The notes under the pieces are model-generated. The model worked only from the letters and a program-made list of their open reading frames with translations. It was not told the origin of the DNA and made no database searches. From a virus: a stretch of DNA of 22,544 bases. The translations under genes were made by a program, and so were the position numbers. The stretch spans positions 1 to 22,544 of IMG/VR virus record IMGVR_UViG_3300020469_000289. One strand, 5' to 3'. Positions within the stretch are counted from its first letter, which is position 1. Each line of letters begins with the position of its first letter. Shown piece after piece: positions 1,897 to 21,339 of the stretch.

Positions 1897-2154
1897 TTAT
1901 TTCTGGGGTATTTGTTTTTTATAATTTTGTGGGTCTGGTGTCCCTTTAACAGGGCCACTGGTAGTCGGCCATGCGTTGACTATTTGTAGATATATTTCTT
2001 CTCTAATGATCTCACGTAGTCTAACCTCTTCAGCGTTAGCTCTCTTTTGTGGTCCACCAGTCTTCTGATCGATGACTGTATTGCCACCAACAAACGCACC
2101 AGTACCTACCACTGCTGCTGCTGTTACACCTGATGTTACTTTTTGAATATCCAT
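1897..2154 (-). CDS. Small hypothetical protein with hydrophobic N-terminus
   Basis: This is an 85-residue protein. Residues 8-25 are Ala, Val, Gly and Thr (GVTAAAVVGTGAFVGG), which could be a membrane segment or a glycine-zipper-like helix. A charged predicted helix follows at about 40-60 (EEVRLREIIREEIYLQI), and the C-terminus is Pro/Lys-rich. The ATG at 2154 overlaps the upstream gene's TAA (TAATG), which fixes the start and suggests coupled translation. No enzymatic motif is visible. A small membrane-associated protein is likely, but no function can be assigned. Confidence 0.65.
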   Translation of the reverse strand: MDIQKVTSGVTAAAVVGTGAFVGGNTVIDQKTGGPQKRANAEEVRLREIIREEIYLQIVNAWPTTSGPVKGTPDPQNYKKQIPQK

Positions 2155-2702
2155 TAGAGATAAGTTACTACTATTACTACACGTCTACCTCTTTTGGGAG
2201 GTACCATACAATGTAGACCTTCAAAGGTTACTATATCATCCTCTTCTGGTGTGAAGTGATGTTTCTTACCACCCTCATCAAATACTATTGTATCACCACC
2301 TGTATTAGTTAGGTAGATTAACAAGTTTTTATGAGGAAACTCATGATCAGTATGGGGTACTGTTAATACATTACCTTCAACTGGGTGAACTGCATTAGCG
2401 TTGATACGATAGACGCAGTGTGGTGTTATTTTATTTAGATGAAATACTTGCTCTAGTAGTCTCTCAATAGCAGGTAAATGCTCGGAGTTTGCCTTAGAAA
2501 ATAGTCCATGTCTAGGACTAGGACCATGCAGAAAGGCATGAGAATAAAATGATAGGTCAGAATGTCCTTCAAATCCCTCCATGTATGGAGTTGCTTTAAC
2601 ATTATATGACCAACCAAAATGTGGTCCTAAGATTAACTCCTTTAATCTCAGGTAATCGTCGTGTATATCTAACTCGTGTAAATTTCTTAATTTGGTAAAC
2701 AT
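2154..2702 (-). CDS. 2OG-Fe(II) oxygenase-like protein (HxD type)
   Basis: This is a 182-residue single-domain protein. It carries the facial-triad pattern of 2-oxoglutarate/Fe(II) oxygenases: HTD at about 117-119, a distal His at about 164 (EGLHCMVPP) and an Arg at about 173-174 (RGRRVVIVV) that would bind 2-oxoglutarate. The strands between them (LLIYLTN, GGDTIVFDEGG) fit the double-stranded beta-helix. Such proteins hydroxylate proteins, nucleobases or small molecules. The substrate cannot be read from the sequence. The start overlaps the preceding gene's end by 16 bases and the stop overlaps the next gene as TAATG. Unlike the other oxygenase-like proteins in the window it has HxD rather than HxH, so it belongs to a different subgroup. 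Confidence 0.75.
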   Translation of the reverse strand: MFTKLRNLHELDIHDDYLRLKELILGPHFGWSYNVKATPYMEGFEGHSDLSFYSHAFLHGPSPRHGLFSKANSEHLPAIERLLEQVFHLNKITPHCVYRINANAVHPVEGNVLTVPHTDHEFPHKNLLIYLTNTGGDTIVFDEGGKKHHFTPEEDDIVTFEGLHCMVPPKRGRRVVIVVTYL

Positions 2703-3301
2703 ATTCTAGGGTAAGGCATCAATCCAATTTCTTGTGACATTCTAAGACGTTCATGATTAAGGTCAAAACCTATAGTATACCTAGGAGTATCCTCATCATA
2801 AGAGTCATCAACCTCAACATGATGAAATAAAGTTCCTGGTCCAATATAAACGTTACCTACCTCATTATCTATCTCAAATATAGTCTTTCCAACTTGCTCA
2901 AATGTACCATCATCAAAAACAGTTCTTGTCTTGTGTGGTCTTATAGTTATATAACCATGCCACGGCCAAACATGGGCGTGTCTGATTAATGGTTTATAGT
3001 CTGGATCACAATTCATCCAAGACTGAATCCATAATTGTTTAGCACCAGTATAATCGTACACTATAGAATTAAGCTCGACCCAGAGGTCATAGAAGACATC
3101 AGTGGGTGAAGTAACACCAAATATATTATACCTACCATACGACCAAGTGAAATCAAATGACTTTTTCATTTGATAAACAGTCCTATCCAATTCATTTAGT
3201 GATGATGCTGCGGTATCTAATACACCACACATCAACTCATGGTTATCCAAAACTACCTGTGATTTAAAAACCACAGGCTCATAATTTAAAGGGTACTTCA
3301 T
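2687..3301 (-). CDS. 2OG-Fe(II) oxygenase-like jelly-roll protein (HxH type)
   Basis: This 204-residue protein has a possible metal site of HAH at about 108-110, a distal His at 160 or 161 (GTLFHHVEV) and an Arg at about 174 (TPRYTIGFDL). The intervening segment (HGYITIRPHKTRTVF, then GNVYIGPG) fits a cupin or double-stranded beta-helix fold. The first His pair is followed by Trp-Pro-Trp, unlike the paralogues at 5593-6911, so this is a distinct branch. Catalytic activity is an inference from the residue pattern. It starts immediately after the small membrane gene at 3302 and overlaps the HxD oxygenase downstream by 16 bases, so the two oxygenase-like genes look co-translated. Confidence 0.65.
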   Translation of the reverse strand: MKYPLNYEPVVFKSQVVLDNHELMCGVLDTAASSLNELDRTVYQMKKSFDFTWSYGRYNIFGVTSPTDVFYDLWVELNSIVYDYTGAKQLWIQSWMNCDPDYKPLIRHAHVWPWHGYITIRPHKTRTVFDDGTFEQVGKTIFEIDNEVGNVYIGPGTLFHHVEVDDSYDEDTPRYTIGFDLNHERLRMSQEIGLMPYPRICLPN

Positions 3302-4767: not shown

Positions 4768-5596
4768 ACATTACCTCTAGCGGTGTTGCGTTTACATCGT
4801 AGTTAACTACTAGTAATTCTTTCTTTAACTTATTGTCTGGCCTATGCTTCATACCATAAGTAATTTTGAATTCTTCTTGATGGTAATCTTTATACATTTC
4901 TTTCAGGTCATCATCATTATTATAAGTGACAAACCAATCATGCTTACATAGATTGCAAGCCTCATAAAATTCTTCATGCTTAAAACTCTTATGCAACTCA
5001 GCGTTACTACCGTATAGGTATGTCCCTATCTTATATGGTGGGTCTAAGAAAAGAAACACATTGTCACCATCTGCTTTCATAACCTCAGAGTAATCTAGGT
5101 TAGTGATTCTCCAAGGTTGAATGATCTGTGAAATATTAACGAGGTTTCTAGCACCTTTAATGGTAAAATTCTGTCTAGATGCTGTTGCACTAAAGGAACT
5201 ATTCTCGGTAAGTCCACTATAACTACACTTATTAAGAATCCAAAAAAGCACAGCTTGATTATAAGGGTCTGCTTTGTGTATTTTGTCTTTGGCATCTTTG
5301 AATAACTCCTTAGCCTTGTCCTCTGCCAAATTATCTGTCTTAATCTCTACCAATTCTTCCGATAATCTTTTTCCATCCTTCTGGAGATGGACCCAAAAAT
5401 TATACAGGTATGTATATTTATCATTAATCCACACTGGTATGTCAGGATACATCTGTGAGAATAATAGTGCTACTGATCCACCACCTATGAAAGGTTCTCT
5501 ATACTCAGTGATATCCCTAGGAAATCTAGGAATAAAATCTTTAGCAACCCTAGACTTACCGCCTGGATATCTTAATGGTGTCTTCAAATACTTCAT
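4760..5596 (-). CDS. dam: Dam-type DNA adenine-N6 methyltransferase (D12 class)
   Basis: This 278-residue enzyme should transfer a methyl group from S-adenosylmethionine to adenine N6, typically in GATC-like sites. The N-terminal LRYPGGKSR (about 8-16) and EPFIGGG (34-40) form the D12-class AdoMet-binding motifs. DPPY at 185-188 is the catalytic motif. The region between holds the target-recognition part. Length and motif order fit a complete Dam enzyme. No restriction enzyme is beside it, so protection of phage DNA or control of replication is more likely than a restriction-modification pair (inference). It overlaps the preceding oxygenase by 4 bases and gp62 by 8, inside the block that splits gp44 from gp62. 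Confidence 0.9.
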   Translation of the reverse strand: MKYLKTPLRYPGGKSRVAKDFIPRFPRDITEYREPFIGGGSVALLFSQMYPDIPVWINDKYTYLYNFWVHLQKDGKRLSEELVEIKTDNLAEDKAKELFKDAKDKIHKADPYNQAVLFWILNKCSYSGLTENSSFSATASRQNFTIKGARNLVNISQIIQPWRITNLDYSEVMKADGDNVFLFLDPPYKIGTYLYGSNAELHKSFKHEEFYEACNLCKHDWFVTYNNDDDLKEMYKDYHQEEFKITYGMKHRPDNKLKKELLVVNYDVNATPLEVMYA

Positions 5597-6246
5597 AATA
5601 CTTTAACCTCTAGTTGTGGATGATCCCAAGGACCAACATTAATTTTACCTTCTGGAAATGCGTTGAAACTGATAGTCCATCTATCAAAATCTTCGGTCTG
5701 TCTACCTGAGAAGTGTCTCAACCATGATGGAAAGAGAATCAACTTACCTGGCTCTGCATCTATTGTATCACAGATTCCCCATTCGGCCTCCATCTCTTTA
5801 TGCATATGTATATCCAGTGTATCATATACTCTCGGAGTGCAAGGGTCATCAAATGCAGTAGGTGCACCACCTGTAAGGTAGTATACAGCACTCACATATG
5901 ACATGGGGTGTCTATGTAATGGGTGACCAAACCCACTACGTGCAGGAGCATTGTTAAACCATGACATTGAAATGGTTAACTCCTCACAGTATAACTGATA
6001 CTGATTACGATACTCCTCTAAGCACTCCCTAAACCATGTGTGTAGTCTATGCACGTGCTCATTGTCACACTTATGTAAGTCTGGTTTACTAGTCAGTACA
6101 CCCTCTGGGAAATTAGAAGGTTGTGCAGGATATGTTTTAAAATATTCAATCAGATGCTCATGAATGCCGTCCTCTGGTTTACGATACTCCCTAAGTTTAA
6201 CTGGAAACAATTGTATCTCAGTACCTGGATATGCAGCATGCTTCAT
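5593..6246 (-). CDS. 2OG-Fe(II) oxygenase-like protein
   Basis: This is a 217-residue protein of the phage 2OG-Fe(II) oxygenase family with HRHPMSYVSAVYYLTGG. Putative metal ligands are His111 and His113 (HRH), with a distal His178 (SWLRHFSG) and Arg189 (DFDRWTISFN) for 2-oxoglutarate. It begins with an LFPVK block typical of this family and ends with a conserved FNAFPEG segment. It is a divergent paralogue of the next gene upstream and of the one at 20698. The adjacent paralogues overlap by 4 bases, which suggests tandem duplication followed by divergence. The substrate is unknown. Confidence 0.8.
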   Translation of the reverse strand: MKHAAYPGTEIQLFPVKLREYRKPEDGIHEHLIEYFKTYPAQPSNFPEGVLTSKPDLHKCDNEHVHRLHTWFRECLEEYRNQYQLYCEELTISMSWFNNAPARSGFGHPLHRHPMSYVSAVYYLTGGAPTAFDDPCTPRVYDTLDIHMHKEMEAEWGICDTIDAEPGKLILFPSWLRHFSGRQTEDFDRWTISFNAFPEGKINVGPWDHPQLEVKVL

Positions 6247-6911
6247 TTAATATAATCTCCCAAATTCAAGGGTCCAAGATCATCCCACCCTTGCACCTTA
6301 TCTATTGTAAGCATATTATTATCCCAAGCACCTGCATTGATAGCACCTTGAGGGAATGTATTAAGTGCAATACTAAATCTCTGAGTTTCAGTGTTGTTGG
6401 GATAGGAAGAATGAATTAGATAACTAGGGAAAACAAACATTGCACCTGGTCTTGGATGTACATACTGAGTAGTCTCTTCATTTGGACCACCATCTAGATG
6501 CAACTGTGCCCACTCCCTTACATGTAAGGGATCAACAAATATAGTTGCTGGTCCTTCAGTGAGATAGTATATACCACTCAAATAAGACATTGGATGTCTA
6601 TGTGGTGCATGATGATGACCACTCTGAGCATCAGATCTATTAGCCCAAGACTTATTAACTACTATTCTATCACAATGCCATCCATTATCAGCATGTAGTG
6701 TATCAATACAACTTTGAAACCATGCATGAAGATCATGAAACTGAGGCATCTTATTCATCTCATCAGATGTACCTACCCCATACTCAGCATTATAATTTCT
6801 ATAGTCCAACTCCTTTACTTTGGCAAGAGTATCTTCTGCCATACCTTTAGGAGAACTAAATGACCAGCATTTAACTGGAAACATATCTTGCCTTAAGTAT
6901 CCCTGTCTCAT
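6243..6911 (-). CDS. 2OG-Fe(II) oxygenase-like protein
   Basis: This is a 222-residue protein with the family block HRHPMSYLSGIYYLTEG. Putative Fe ligands are His104, His106 and His167 (SYLIHSS), and Arg178 (TQRFSIALN) would bind 2-oxoglutarate. Extra His residues (GHHHAPHRH) precede the site. The whole length aligns by eye with the protein at 20698-21339, including VGTS, VNKxWANRSDA and WxQxHLDG, so the two are close paralogues. The start overlaps the stop of a 23-codon microgene (ATGA). The reaction is probably hydroxylation of an unknown substrate. Confidence 0.82.
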   Translation of the reverse strand: MRQGYLRQDMFPVKCWSFSSPKGMAEDTLAKVKELDYRNYNAEYGVGTSDEMNKMPQFHDLHAWFQSCIDTLHADNGWHCDRIVVNKSWANRSDAQSGHHHAPHRHPMSYLSGIYYLTEGPATIFVDPLHVREWAQLHLDGGPNEETTQYVHPRPGAMFVFPSYLIHSSYPNNTETQRFSIALNTFPQGAINAGAWDNNMLTIDKVQGWDDLGPLNLGDYIK

Positions 6912-6979
6912 TTTTTAAACACACCAAATTTAGATAGTAACCACAGTGTAACTATTGTCCACCCTATAACGTACCACAT
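6908..6979 (-). CDS. 23-residue single-helix membrane microprotein
   Basis: This ORF exactly fills the gap between gp44 and the oxygenase. Its ATG shares a base with the gp44 stop (TAATG), and its TGA overlaps the next ATG (ATGA). The predicted peptide starts MWYVIGWTIVTLWLL and ends SKFGVFKK. That gives one hydrophobic helix with several Trp and a basic C-terminus, as in small membrane peptides. No ribosome binding site is obvious, so translation would depend on coupling to gp44. It is below the usual length cut-off of gene finders. Function is unknown. The junctions on both sides and the hydrophobic composition argue that it is real, but 23 codons cannot exclude chance. Confidence 0.6.
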   Translation of the reverse strand: MWYVIGWTIVTLWLLSKFGVFKK

Positions 6980-7911
6980 TATTTGTATTCACACCTCATC
7001 ATTAACTCTGTCATGAATGCAACTAGATTAATCTCCTGATCTACCACAAATGAAGACTTGTATTGATACTCAGAGATAATCAACACTGCTTCTGGGATAG
7101 ACTTAGGATCAAAGTAATTGTATAGTCCATCATATATCTTACGCATGATAACTTGTGGCTCGTTGTCCATATTCTGAGCAACCCACTTCTTCATGTTAGT
7201 AAACTCCTTCTTACGAAGATGGCCGACTACTCTATCTATACTAAATTCATTACCAGAAGTTAGTATACCAGAATCTATCACACCTGTTGCAGAATATCTC
7301 TGCAATTCATTAAGAGTCCTACGAAAATCTGGGAAGTACTTTGTTACTACCTCTGCTACTACCCTATCTTCAAACTTAACACTCTCCTTTCTAAGGATCT
7401 CACACACCCTACCAAAGAATGCTTCAGCAATCTTCTGCTTATCCTTTTTAATATTAAAATCAACAACAGAGCACCTACTATGCAGTGGTCCTATGATTTT
7501 ATTCTTATAGTTACACGTGAAGATGAACCTGCAGTTCTTTTGAAACTCCTCAATCGACGCACGTAGTAATAATTGTACGTCTGGTGTTGTATTATCTGCC
7601 TCATCCACAATGATAACTTTGTGACGAGATTCAGATGTAAGAGAAACAGTAGAAGCAAAGGTCTTTGCTTGATTGCGTATAGTGTCCAAGAATCTACCTT
7701 CATCAGACCCATTAATGACATAACTATCTGCTCCTAACTCTTCACATAATGCTTTAGCTATCGTGGTTTTACCTACACCCGCAGACCCAGAGAGCAAGAG
7801 GTTTGGTATCTCCCCTTGCTCTAAGAATCCTTTGAATACTGTCTTAGTATCGTCTGGTAGGATGCATTCTTCAATTGTTTTTGGTCTATACTTCTCTACC
7901 CATAGAAACAT
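6979..7911 (-). CDS. 44: Clamp loader large subunit gp44 (AAA+ ATPase)
   Basis: gp44 is the ATPase of the clamp loader. It opens gp45 and places it at primer-template junctions. The 310-residue protein begins with WVEKYRP, typical of clamp loader and RFC small subunits. Walker A is GSAGVGKTT (42-50) and Walker B is VIIVDEAD (99-106). The SRC motif, whose Arg acts in trans on the neighbouring subunit's ATP, is at 145-147. The length is close to T4 gp44 (about 319). Its ATG overlaps the gp45 stop as TAATG. The other loader subunit, gp62, lies about 2.2 kb further downstream. Confidence 0.95.
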   Translation of the reverse strand: MFLWVEKYRPKTIEECILPDDTKTVFKGFLEQGEIPNLLLSGSAGVGKTTIAKALCEELGADSYVINGSDEGRFLDTIRNQAKTFASTVSLTSESRHKVIIVDEADNTTPDVQLLLRASIEEFQKNCRFIFTCNYKNKIIGPLHSRCSVVDFNIKKDKQKIAEAFFGRVCEILRKESVKFEDRVVAEVVTKYFPDFRRTLNELQRYSATGVIDSGILTSGNEFSIDRVVGHLRKKEFTNMKKWVAQNMDNEPQVIMRKIYDGLYNYFDPKSIPEAVLIISEYQYKSSFVVDQEINLVAFMTELMMRCEYK

Positions 7912-14926: not shown

Positions 14927-15957
14927 TAAACTTCTACTGCCTCCATGTATAGCGATTTAAGTATCTTAAATATACCTTCCTTATTCTCAAAGTCAGACAC
15001 ACACTGCTCTAGTATAGTTAACGTGTCCTCTATCTCAACATCGTCATCAACATCATCCAACTCATATGACATGTCTTCAATGATTTTAAGGTCTGCCAAG
15101 TCAGCAGCCTGTAATCTTCTCACTATGCTATCAAACTTAACTTGATCTTTCTTCTCTTCTACTATGACCTTAACATACATCCCCTCCAGTCTTTTGATAT
15201 CAACAGGAGATAGACTCAGATCATCATTGTAATATATCTTATGAAATGTATCAAAAGGATTTGTATGGAATGTTAGACTTCCATTATTATTTAGTATATG
15301 AAACCCTCTTTCCTGATCGTAATCATTCCAATACAACTGACATGGGTTACCTAGGTATCTAATATTTGATTTACTACTCTTGACATGATAATGACCAGAG
15401 CATACCATCTTAAATTTTTTAAATGGAGATGGATCATCACCATGTGTCATAGTATATCCAGGTATGGGATCAAATCCATTTAATTCAAAATGACCCATAC
15501 AATACTTGGCATCAGTATCATTAATTGCTTCCCAACATGCTTGCTTATTCTCTTCACATATCCAAGGGATGAGCATCATTAACTTACCACCTATAACCCT
15601 CTCACCTGGACTATAAATGATCTCAATATTATCAAACTCTCCAAGAAGAAGATCAGGGGAATTAACACGGAGAGTATTTTTATAATAGATGTCATGATTT
15701 CCCAACAAGATGGTCTGTTTGATTCCTCTTTCTTGCAAAGGTCTAAACCACATATCCTTTGCTGCCTCTAAGGATGCAAAATTACAAGACTTTCTTCTAT
15801 CAAAGGTATCTCCCAGATTTAATATCTCTGTGATGCCTTCCTCATCAATCTTAGGTAGGACTACCTCAGTATAAAACTTACGATACCTCTCAACATAATG
15901 GAGGTTATCATTCCTCACTCCGAAGTGCTGATCAGTTATCAGTAATACTTTACTCAT
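14926..15957 (-). CDS. 47: Recombination nuclease subunit gp47 (Mre11/SbcD-like)
   Basis: gp47 is the Mre11-like metallophosphoesterase partner of gp46. The 343-residue protein shows the full set of metal ligands: D9 and H11 (TDQHFG), D50 (LGDTFDRR), N87 and H88 (LLGNHDIYY), H156 (GHFELNG), then H189 and H191 (SGHYHVK). The length is close to T4 gp47 (about 339). The C-terminal part is acidic (DDVDDDVEIED) and likely includes the cap and gp46-binding helices. The start overlaps the preceding oxygenase by 4 bases. Confidence 0.95.
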   Translation of the reverse strand: MSKVLLITDQHFGVRNDNLHYVERYRKFYTEVVLPKIDEEGITEILNLGDTFDRRKSCNFASLEAAKDMWFRPLQERGIKQTILLGNHDIYYKNTLRVNSPDLLLGEFDNIEIIYSPGERVIGGKLMMLIPWICEENKQACWEAINDTDAKYCMGHFELNGFDPIPGYTMTHGDDPSPFKKFKMVCSGHYHVKSSKSNIRYLGNPCQLYWNDYDQERGFHILNNNGSLTFHTNPFDTFHKIYYNDDLSLSPVDIKRLEGMYVKVIVEEKKDQVKFDSIVRRLQAADLADLKIIEDMSYELDDVDDDVEIEDTLTILEQCVSDFENKEGIFKILKSLYMEAVEV

Positions 15958-16547
15958 ACTAAGTTTCCGTTAAAATTGATGCTTATTGCTTGACGTTTAT
16001 TTGTTGCACGATTTGTGCGATGACGTATCCAACCAGGAAATAAGAGGAAATCTCCAGTCCTTGTTGCCACGGGTTCAGCTATGATAGCATCACCATTGTC
16101 TTTCTGCAAGGGGGTCAGCCTACGTACGTAATCTAATGGATCACACAGACAGATATCACCACCCTCATCCTTCTGCAAATAATATACAGATGCTATATGA
16201 CATCCCAATCTACCATTACAATGGGAATGCTCACCAGTAAAATCATTATAGGTGTGCCAATTAGACCAAGAAGCAGTAGGTCTGATCTCAGCAGGTGCAT
16301 ACCCTAGATGCGTATCCCAATACTGTAACACATCAGGCATCATCATCTCTATAAGTTGAGCAACAAGAGGTTCTTCCTCATGTAAAAACAGATTAAACTC
16401 ACCTGTAGACTTACCAGTCTCAGATGCCCACTTGCCTTTATGACAGTCTTCTAGTTTCTCTGCTATTACCTCAAATAAACCCTCTGGAGGATCAATATGG
16501 CCCTTCAAAACTGGGACTGGGAATAGATTTAATATCTGGTTCATCAA
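15954..16547 (-). CDS. 2OG-Fe(II) oxygenase-like protein, overlapping pcyA
   Basis: This 197-residue protein begins with the LFPVPVLKG block typical of phage 2OG-Fe(II) oxygenases. Putative Fe ligands are His107 and His109 (GEHSHCNG) and His176 (GWIRHRTN), and Arg185 would bind 2-oxoglutarate. The IASVYYLQKDEGGDI segment and the SINFNG end also fit. Its first 56 bases overlap the end of pcyA in another frame, yet its N-terminal motif is conserved-looking, so the start at 16547 is probably right. The cassette position suggests co-expression with the bilin reductases, but the substrate is unknown. Confidence 0.8.
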   Translation of the reverse strand: MMNQILNLFPVPVLKGHIDPPEGLFEVIAEKLEDCHKGKWASETGKSTGEFNLFLHEEEPLVAQLIEMMMPDVLQYWDTHLGYAPAEIRPTASWSNWHTYNDFTGEHSHCNGRLGCHIASVYYLQKDEGGDICLCDPLDYVRRLTPLQKDNGDAIIAEPVATRTGDFLLFPGWIRHRTNRATNKRQAISINFNGNLV

Positions 16548-20261: not shown

Positions 20262-20701
20262 CGGATACCATAATACTTAACAATCTCAATAGTATTCTTA
20301 ATAGCAAACCCACGATTATGGATCTCTTTAAGTATCCTATCAATAGAATTTATACAAGTTTCTAGGTAGTCTATTTTCTGCTTGACTCTACACACATCAT
20401 CATCACTGTCAATAAACATATCAATGTCACCCTTTAATACCTTAAGATCAAAGGGTTTCTCTGCATATACAGATGCAGGTGCTTTACCGTTGTAATATAA
20501 CCACTTATCTTTATATAATTTGTTGTACTTAGTCTGTGCACTAGACAGCATAAGTTTAAATTCATTATGTAATTGCAAATACTTTGCATGGAGTTTAGGA
20601 GTTTCCATACTATCGTTGGCAAGCAACTCTGGTAAGTCCCTGTGGTCAAAAAACTTCTCAGCATCCTTTGCCCATAACTCTTCAATCTTTTCTAAATTCA
20701 T
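20258..20701 (-). CDS. uvsY: UvsY recombination mediator
   Basis: UvsY loads UvsX recombinase onto single-stranded DNA coated with gp32. The 147-residue protein matches T4 UvsY in size (about 137) and in blocks such as YYNGKAP and HNRGFAIKNTIE (T4 has SRGFAIKHIQ). It lies directly upstream of uvsW, near a baseplate-like gene, as uvsY does in T4. UvsX and gp32 are not in the window. It overlaps the upstream oxygenase by 4 bases. Confidence 0.9.
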   Translation of the reverse strand: MNLEKIEELWAKDAEKFFDHRDLPELLANDSMETPKLHAKYLQLHNEFKLMLSSAQTKYNKLYKDKWLYYNGKAPASVYAEKPFDLKVLKGDIDMFIDSDDDVCRVKQKIDYLETCINSIDRILKEIHNRGFAIKNTIEIVKYYGIR

Positions 20702-21339
20702 AGATACTTACCTACATTATTAACTGTTACATTACACATAGACTCACCATGACCAGAATCTTGTAAATCTCCTTGAGGAAATGTATTAAATGACATGGTA
20801 AACCTATCCACATGTGGGGTATAGTTTGGTTCTGATGCATGTATAACATAACTAGGGAAGACCATCAAACCACCTGCTCCTAGGTGAGAATATTGTCTTG
20901 CATCCCTATCTGGATACCCATCTAAATGGAATTGTCCCCATTCTCTTTCTCTTACAGGATCTAAAAATACTGTCGGTGCTCCTTCAGTAAGATAAAATAT
21001 CCCACTTAGATATGACATGGGGTGACGATGGAAATCATGATGATCTCCACTATTAGCATCAGATCTATTAGCCCAACACTTATTAACTACTAGTCTATCA
21101 CATACATAACCTTCATCCTCCTTTAATTCATCTATACACTTTTGAAACCATAGATGTATATCAAGAAAATCATCCCTAGTCTGTAGTTCGGATGAAGTCC
21201 CAACACCAGCAGGTTCATTATACCTATTATATTCTAACTTCTTTAATTTTTCAAGGGTAGCATCAGTAAGATCTTTCGGTGCATGAAATTCAAAAAATCT
21301 TACTGGGAATGCAGGACATTCCGTGTAAGTTTTGGTCAT
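20698..21339 (-). CDS. 2OG-Fe(II) oxygenase-like protein, close paralogue of the one at 6243
   Basis: This 213-residue protein carries HRHPMSYLSGIFYLTEG. Putative ligands are His104, His106 and His167 (SYVIHASE), and Arg179 (DRFTMSFN) would bind 2-oxoglutarate. It aligns by eye nearly end to end with the protein at 6243-6911 (VVNKxWANRSDAxSG, FNTFPQG), so one gene probably arose by duplication. It sits between a small hypothetical protein and uvsY with short overlaps on both sides. The substrate is unknown. Confidence 0.82.
   Translation of the reverse strand: MTKTYTECPAFPVRFFEFHAPKDLTDATLEKLKKLEYNRYNEPAGVGTSSELQTRDDFLDIHLWFQKCIDELKEDEGYVCDRLVVNKCWANRSDANSGDHHDFHRHPMSYLSGIFYLTEGAPTVFLDPVREREWGQFHLDGYPDRDARQYSHLGAGGLMVFPSYVIHASEPNYTPHVDRFTMSFNTFPQGDLQDSGHGESMCNVTVNNVGKYL

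Follow-up and report, generated by a model that had tools for sequence, protein, structure and literature searches.

A 23-codon, putatively mobile microgene of ocean cyanophages predicted to encode a single-span membrane peptide

The window analysed here, a 22.5-kb virus record (22,544 nucleotides), contains an ORF of 23 codons and a TGA stop, encoding MWYVIGWTIVTLWLLSKFGVFKK, that exactly fills the gap between gp44 and a 2OG-Fe(II) oxygenase gene (Table 1). Is this ORF a gene and, if so, what might its peptide do? An earlier note had described a Trp-rich single helix with a terminal Lys, bounded by a TAATG and an ATGA junction. Both junctions were confirmed from the sequence, with the TAA stop codon of gp44 lying inside the TAATG overlap, and the peptide has three Trp in 23 residues, a Lys-Lys C-terminus and a hydropathy in keeping with one helix. 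When the 66 inner bases were shuffled with their composition preserved and both junctions fixed, the gap stayed open in 12% of trials; junction geometry alone is therefore no proof of a gene.

Table 1. Positions of the microgene, its junctions and neighbours, and other features noted in the window and at related loci.
Feature	Location	Strand	Basis or remark
Microgene, 23 codons + TGA, MWYVIGWTIVTLWLLSKFGVFKK	6908..6979	-	ORF; MWY branch of phrog_36745 family
TAATG junction, gp44 stop overlapping microgene start	6977..6981	-	sequence reading
ATGA junction, microgene stop overlapping 2OG oxygenase start	6908..6911	-	sequence reading
Upstream neighbour gp44, clamp-loader subunit	6979..7911	-	Gp44_lid + AAA; phrog_168 E 1.9e-129
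Downstream neighbour 2OG-Fe(II) oxygenase	6243..6911	-	PF13759 E 1.7e-17; phrog_81
Oxygenase-related ORF regions in window	2154-3301, 5593-6911, 15954-16547, 20698-21339		phrog_81 / phrog_274 / phrog_2696 matches
Second small membrane-protein family	L009, L024, L025, L048 just after gp44; L081:4934-5152; L093 upstream of microgene

The window holds one copy of the microgene. Cyanophage P-RSM6 is the nearest named phage to its gp44 (75.8%), and a CobS-like porphyrin-biosynthesis gene, typical of cyanomyoviruses, is also present. Four window ORFs match phrog_81, the phage 2OG-Fe(II) oxygenase family, two of them in tandem after the microgene, and two further ORFs (2154-2702 and 2687-3301) match phrog_274 and phrog_2696. 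This set of oxygenase-type ORFs is unusually dense for 22.5 kb. The label of phrog_274 is DNA endonuclease V, yet this family also matches the oxygenases weakly, so the label looks doubtful.

Two N-terminal heads and their annotation

A tblastn search of 50,697 phage records with the 23-mer returned 13 matches, all from cyanophages and mostly with weak E-values. Re-querying with those relatives led to a single family with two N-terminal heads: a long one of 27 residues, MNNxGLE[IV]xFWTxLxxYxLx[KR]xGVFKK, and a short one of 23 residues, MWYxxxWTxxxxWLLSKxGVFKK, which is the window's form. On sequence grounds the two are one family, because a profile made from MNNxGLE members only was run on eight MWY genomes and in each matched nothing but the MWY ORF (E 4e-7 to 6e-5). 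The P-RSM6 member, MWYVLFWTVIIMYVLVRIGTFKK, is intermediate between the heads. IMG/VR scans yielded at least 436 relatives, and the scan with an MWY query 154.

The corresponding PHROGs entry, phrog_36745, is 27 aa long and carries the function label "unknown". MNNxGLE members match it at E 5e-9 to 4e-20; the window peptide does so at E 1.3e-4 (2.5e-5 with the window searched as a genome), over profile columns 8-27 only, that is, its C-terminal 20 residues. Alignments place the WT...[YW]xL..[KR]xGxFKK core of the entry in the window form, which also has the same single-helix plan and gene-between-gene placement as the listed members (P-SSP7 PSSP7_053 and P-TIM40 gp024). In contrast, it lacks the MNNxGLE head and so does not fill the 27 columns; like all MWY members, it begins MWY. 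The window form is thus best filed as a variant branch of phrog_36745 and not as a typical member.

Gene finders had been expected to skip so short an ORF, and only 2 of 20 annotated isolates list it, as the hypothetical genes PSSP7_053 and gp024; the MWY form is unannotated in the phages that carry it. No paper naming the family was found in the open-licence literature. The MWY branch itself appears to be undescribed, and so do three family traits set out below: mobility, for which matching empty sites exist, restriction to a single copy, and host bias. The microgene ranks with the shortest conserved ocean-cyanophage genes that one might name, and almost every annotation leaves it out.

Constraint on the reading frame

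Selection was examined in 185 loci comprising 124 distinct nucleotide sequences. For the MWY subfamily (23 aa, the window form), pN/pS over the whole peptide was 0.083, and 0.141 over residues outside the search patterns, with no in-frame stop; the latter is the fairer figure, as collecting loci by peptide similarity lowers pN somewhat. The MNNxGLE subfamily (27 aa) gave 0.179. Pairwise differences in the MWY form were distributed 2636/282/7553 over the three codon positions. Its +1 and +2 frames were interrupted by stops in 48 of 48 sequences, and across both subfamilies the alternative frames were broken in most or all sequences. Between the contexts compared, no shared sequence was found outside the ORF. 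The earlier note had proposed looking for a conserved frame and hydrophobic helix in related phages, and both are kept, at pN/pS 0.08-0.18 across the 124 distinct sequences. By these comparisons the microgene is a genuine protein-coding gene under purifying selection in this frame, a status that rests on frame-specific conservation and not on the junctions.

The perfect overlaps, and the 12% chance of an open gap once the junctions are given, might also be explained without any peptide function, by a chance ORF, an RNA element or a cis-acting translational coupler. However, it is the amino acids that are conserved, not the bases, in every context and outside the search patterns; frame-specific constraint rules out a chance ORF, a cis-only coupler or an RNA motif, and we give such explanations next to no weight. 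A frameshift fusion to the downstream protein was likewise rejected, since the A-run is not conserved and members end TTTAAATGA, TTTAGATGA or AAGAAATGA.

Genomic placement and empty sites

Tight packing was general among the 185 loci. On the upstream side, the microgene overlapped or abutted its neighbour or lay within 3 nt of it in 172, and on the downstream side an ATGA overlap was present in 155 of the 178 loci that have a downstream gene. The +1 overlap (TAATG type) seen in the window recurred in 38/84 MWY loci. The neighbours themselves varied, falling into 34 upstream and 41 downstream clusters in about 70 combinations, figures that are approximate, since ORFs were called mechanically and clustered by single linkage. 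Those with annotation include gp44, gp45, gp7, denV, CP12, talC, DNA methylases, a pebS-like oxidoreductase and baseplate gp25, among others; unannotated contigs read by eye added gp45, gp47 and purN/purM/purH. The microgene is often beside replication, nucleotide or carbon-metabolism genes, and in a few carriers next to late baseplate genes. In P-HM2, talC and cp12 belong to the middle genes (PMC5082946), and neighbours such as these, gp44 and gp45 suggest mostly early/middle expression.

This variety bears on the earlier note's suggestion of a peptide tied to the clamp-loader operon, taken here as a dedicated membrane anchor or regulator. The microgene does follow gp44 in the window and at five other loci, and precedes it at L217. 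However, 178/185 loci do not adjoin gp44; the microgene also occurs in T7-like podoviruses, beside talC; and L002, a close gp44 relative, is without it. Among 50 relatives fetched by gp44 similarity and read, the microgene followed gp44 in L044 only. As far as the sequences go, the membrane microgene stands and the clamp-loader link fails, and we regard a dedicated anchor as very improbable.

A second family of small membrane proteins (WYYIFWGxATxxVVxGQxYVGxGYR, about 50-90 aa) is frequently encoded at the position following gp44 or near the microgene; that position has the appearance of a hypervariable cassette site.

Exactly one copy was present in each of 26 carrier genomes or large contigs, with either head, and none in six genomes examined (P-SSM2, Syn9, S-PM2, S-SM2 and two IMG/VR contigs). 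Homologous empty sites, missing the ORF alone, were found at four positions. L002 has the same gp44 and 2OG oxygenase genes joined directly, and L018 has gp45 joined to gp44 where L217 carries the microgene. L027 (GGTTTTACTAATGAGATTAAC) lacks exactly the ORF relative to P-SSM7 (GGTATTATTA-ORF-GATTAAC), and L050 and L105 form a similar empty/filled pair. As many cyanophages are without it, the microgene is not essential. The sequences show that it has moved between two phage families and to many genomic positions, as a unit ending at the ORF. The MNNxGLE form opens with ATGAAY and mostly closes with ATGA, so that stop/start overlaps flank such a cassette once it is in place; insertion may thus proceed through a stop/start junction. 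Single-copy, position-changing and found in two virus families, the microgene shows that 70-85 nt of coding sequence can be swapped as a unit with no recognisable mobility gene.

Carriers, topology and proposed role

Relatives were found in 22 cultured cyanophages of two virus families. Carriers among the cyanomyoviruses are P-HM1, P-HM2, MED4-213, P-SSM3, P-SSM4, P-SSM7, P-RSM1, P-RSM3, P-RSM4, P-RSM6, P-TIM40 and P-TIM68, together with S-SSM4, S-SSM5, S-SSM6a, S-SSM6b, S-SSM7 and S-TIM4; the T7-like podovirus carriers are P-SSP2, P-SSP3, P-SSP7 and P-GSP1. The single-cell record AG-345-L05 also has a member. The microgene is enriched in Prochlorococcus phages: 16/24 Prochlorococcus-named cyanomyovirus records carry it vs 6/355 Synechococcus-named ones (p = 8e-18, indicative only, as hosts were taken from database names and duplicates and clonal series were included). 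That its carriers are viruses of ocean cyanobacteria suggests a host membrane target, and the bias points to a specific one in a phototroph that ranks among the most abundant.

One scan of genome contigs, whose sensitivity could miss divergent host relatives, revealed no cellular homologue. The scan gave two matches. L183 (NZ_RMVE01000006.1), from a Nonlabens xiamenensis assembly (Bacteroidota), repeats the P-TIM40 locus, with CP12, an identical microprotein and the same next gene, and is probably phage contamination; the contig is 188 kb, about as long as the P-TIM40 genome. The other, an archaeal MAG contig, has a DNA methylase downstream of the microgene, as in phage loci, and would be contamination too. 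With both matches judged in this way, a host-derived gene was rejected as far as that one scan reaches.

Hydropathy over 19 residues was 1.5-1.76, borderline, and enough for one span. A model of the longest member (40 residues) placed a helix at residues 4-21, with pLDDT 85 for residues 1-10 and 93 for residues 11-20, consistent with a predicted single-span membrane peptide made of one hydrophobic helix. A conserved helix face was not significant (permutation p 0.43). The C-terminus is basic, with an extended tail in some members (KKSNKKSYSRKKRKK), and this together with the positive-inside rule predicts an N-out/C-in orientation.

That almost all residues are constrained, whatever the context, speaks for a specific membrane partner and against a mere coupler. 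The likeliest product is a single-span peptide of the early/middle phase, oriented N-out/C-in, that would bind a protein of the host membrane. Its translation would be coupled to the gene before it and fall mainly in the early/middle phase. The peptide would insert with its basic tail in the cytoplasm and bind a host membrane protein or complex that matters to phages of Prochlorococcus-type cells, acting during takeover as a small accessory or regulatory subunit that tunes it. We favour this full reading tentatively, giving it somewhat less than an even chance. Counting against it, the searches turned up no homologue of known function, a conserved helix face could not be shown, many cyanophages do without the microgene, and a few carriers have late baseplate neighbours. 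Small single-span regulatory or accessory membrane peptides of this kind include CydX, KdpF and MgtR, which the microgene product resembles by analogy in size, single helix and charged end; unlike them, it is phage-encoded and has no partner gene adjoining. No described microprotein family of this type was matched above cut-off in Pfam or NCBIfam. The P-RSM6 member weakly resembled NCBIfam NF038354, a putative transporter small subunit (E 0.23, residues 3-18), but at 11.4 bits against a cut-off of 40 and with no transporter adjoining, the microgene is not a member. The cultured carriers P-HM2, P-SSP7 and P-SSM4 make a specific host target directly testable, and engineering of a T7-like cyanophage has been described (PMC8776855).

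Exclusion, mimicry of a photosynthetic subunit and lysis all rank below a takeover peptide. A superinfection exclusion or immunity peptide, sitting in the host membrane and blocking DNA entry of competing phages, would likewise be a small, accessory, one-copy membrane peptide exchanged between phages with common hosts. However, profile searches gave no similarity to known exclusion proteins, since the family is conserved across competing phages it would tend to shield against phages that carry the gene themselves, and the diversification expected for specificity was not seen; we consider exclusion unlikely. Photosynthetic and respiratory complexes include subunits of the size of this peptide, and it might instead mimic a small single-span subunit (of a photosystem, cytochrome b6f, NDH or an oxidase) and sustain electron flow during infection, in line with the Prochlorococcus bias and with the pebS-like, CP12 and talC genes that it adjoins in several phages. 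Yet photosynthesis genes are a minority of neighbours, and there was no match above cut-off to solved chains, Pfam or NCBIfam: neither the PDB profile search nor Pfam returned a photosystem, cytochrome b6f or NDH small subunit, and the one PDB match, an olfactory receptor (E 0.62), is a chance one. Such mimicry is rather unlikely. The short hydrophobic helix and basic C-terminus would also suit a holin, pinholin or antiholin-like lysis factor, but known holins do not look like one short helix with a Lys at its centre, the neighbours are mostly early/middle genes and not endolysin, and many related phages do without the microgene, making lysis quite improbable.

A bolder extension of the takeover reading is possible, if not probable: a transposase-free mobile microgene, common to phage families, concentrated in phages of oceanic picocyanobacteria and spread by insertion at ATG(A) stop/start junctions, would encode a one-helix effector reprogramming a host thylakoid or plasma-membrane complex.

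Five members (L124, L134, L100, L103 and L118) have Lys/Arg-rich tails of up to 13 extra residues past GVFKK. On the cytoplasmic side, such tails may serve to bind lipid head groups or nucleic acid.
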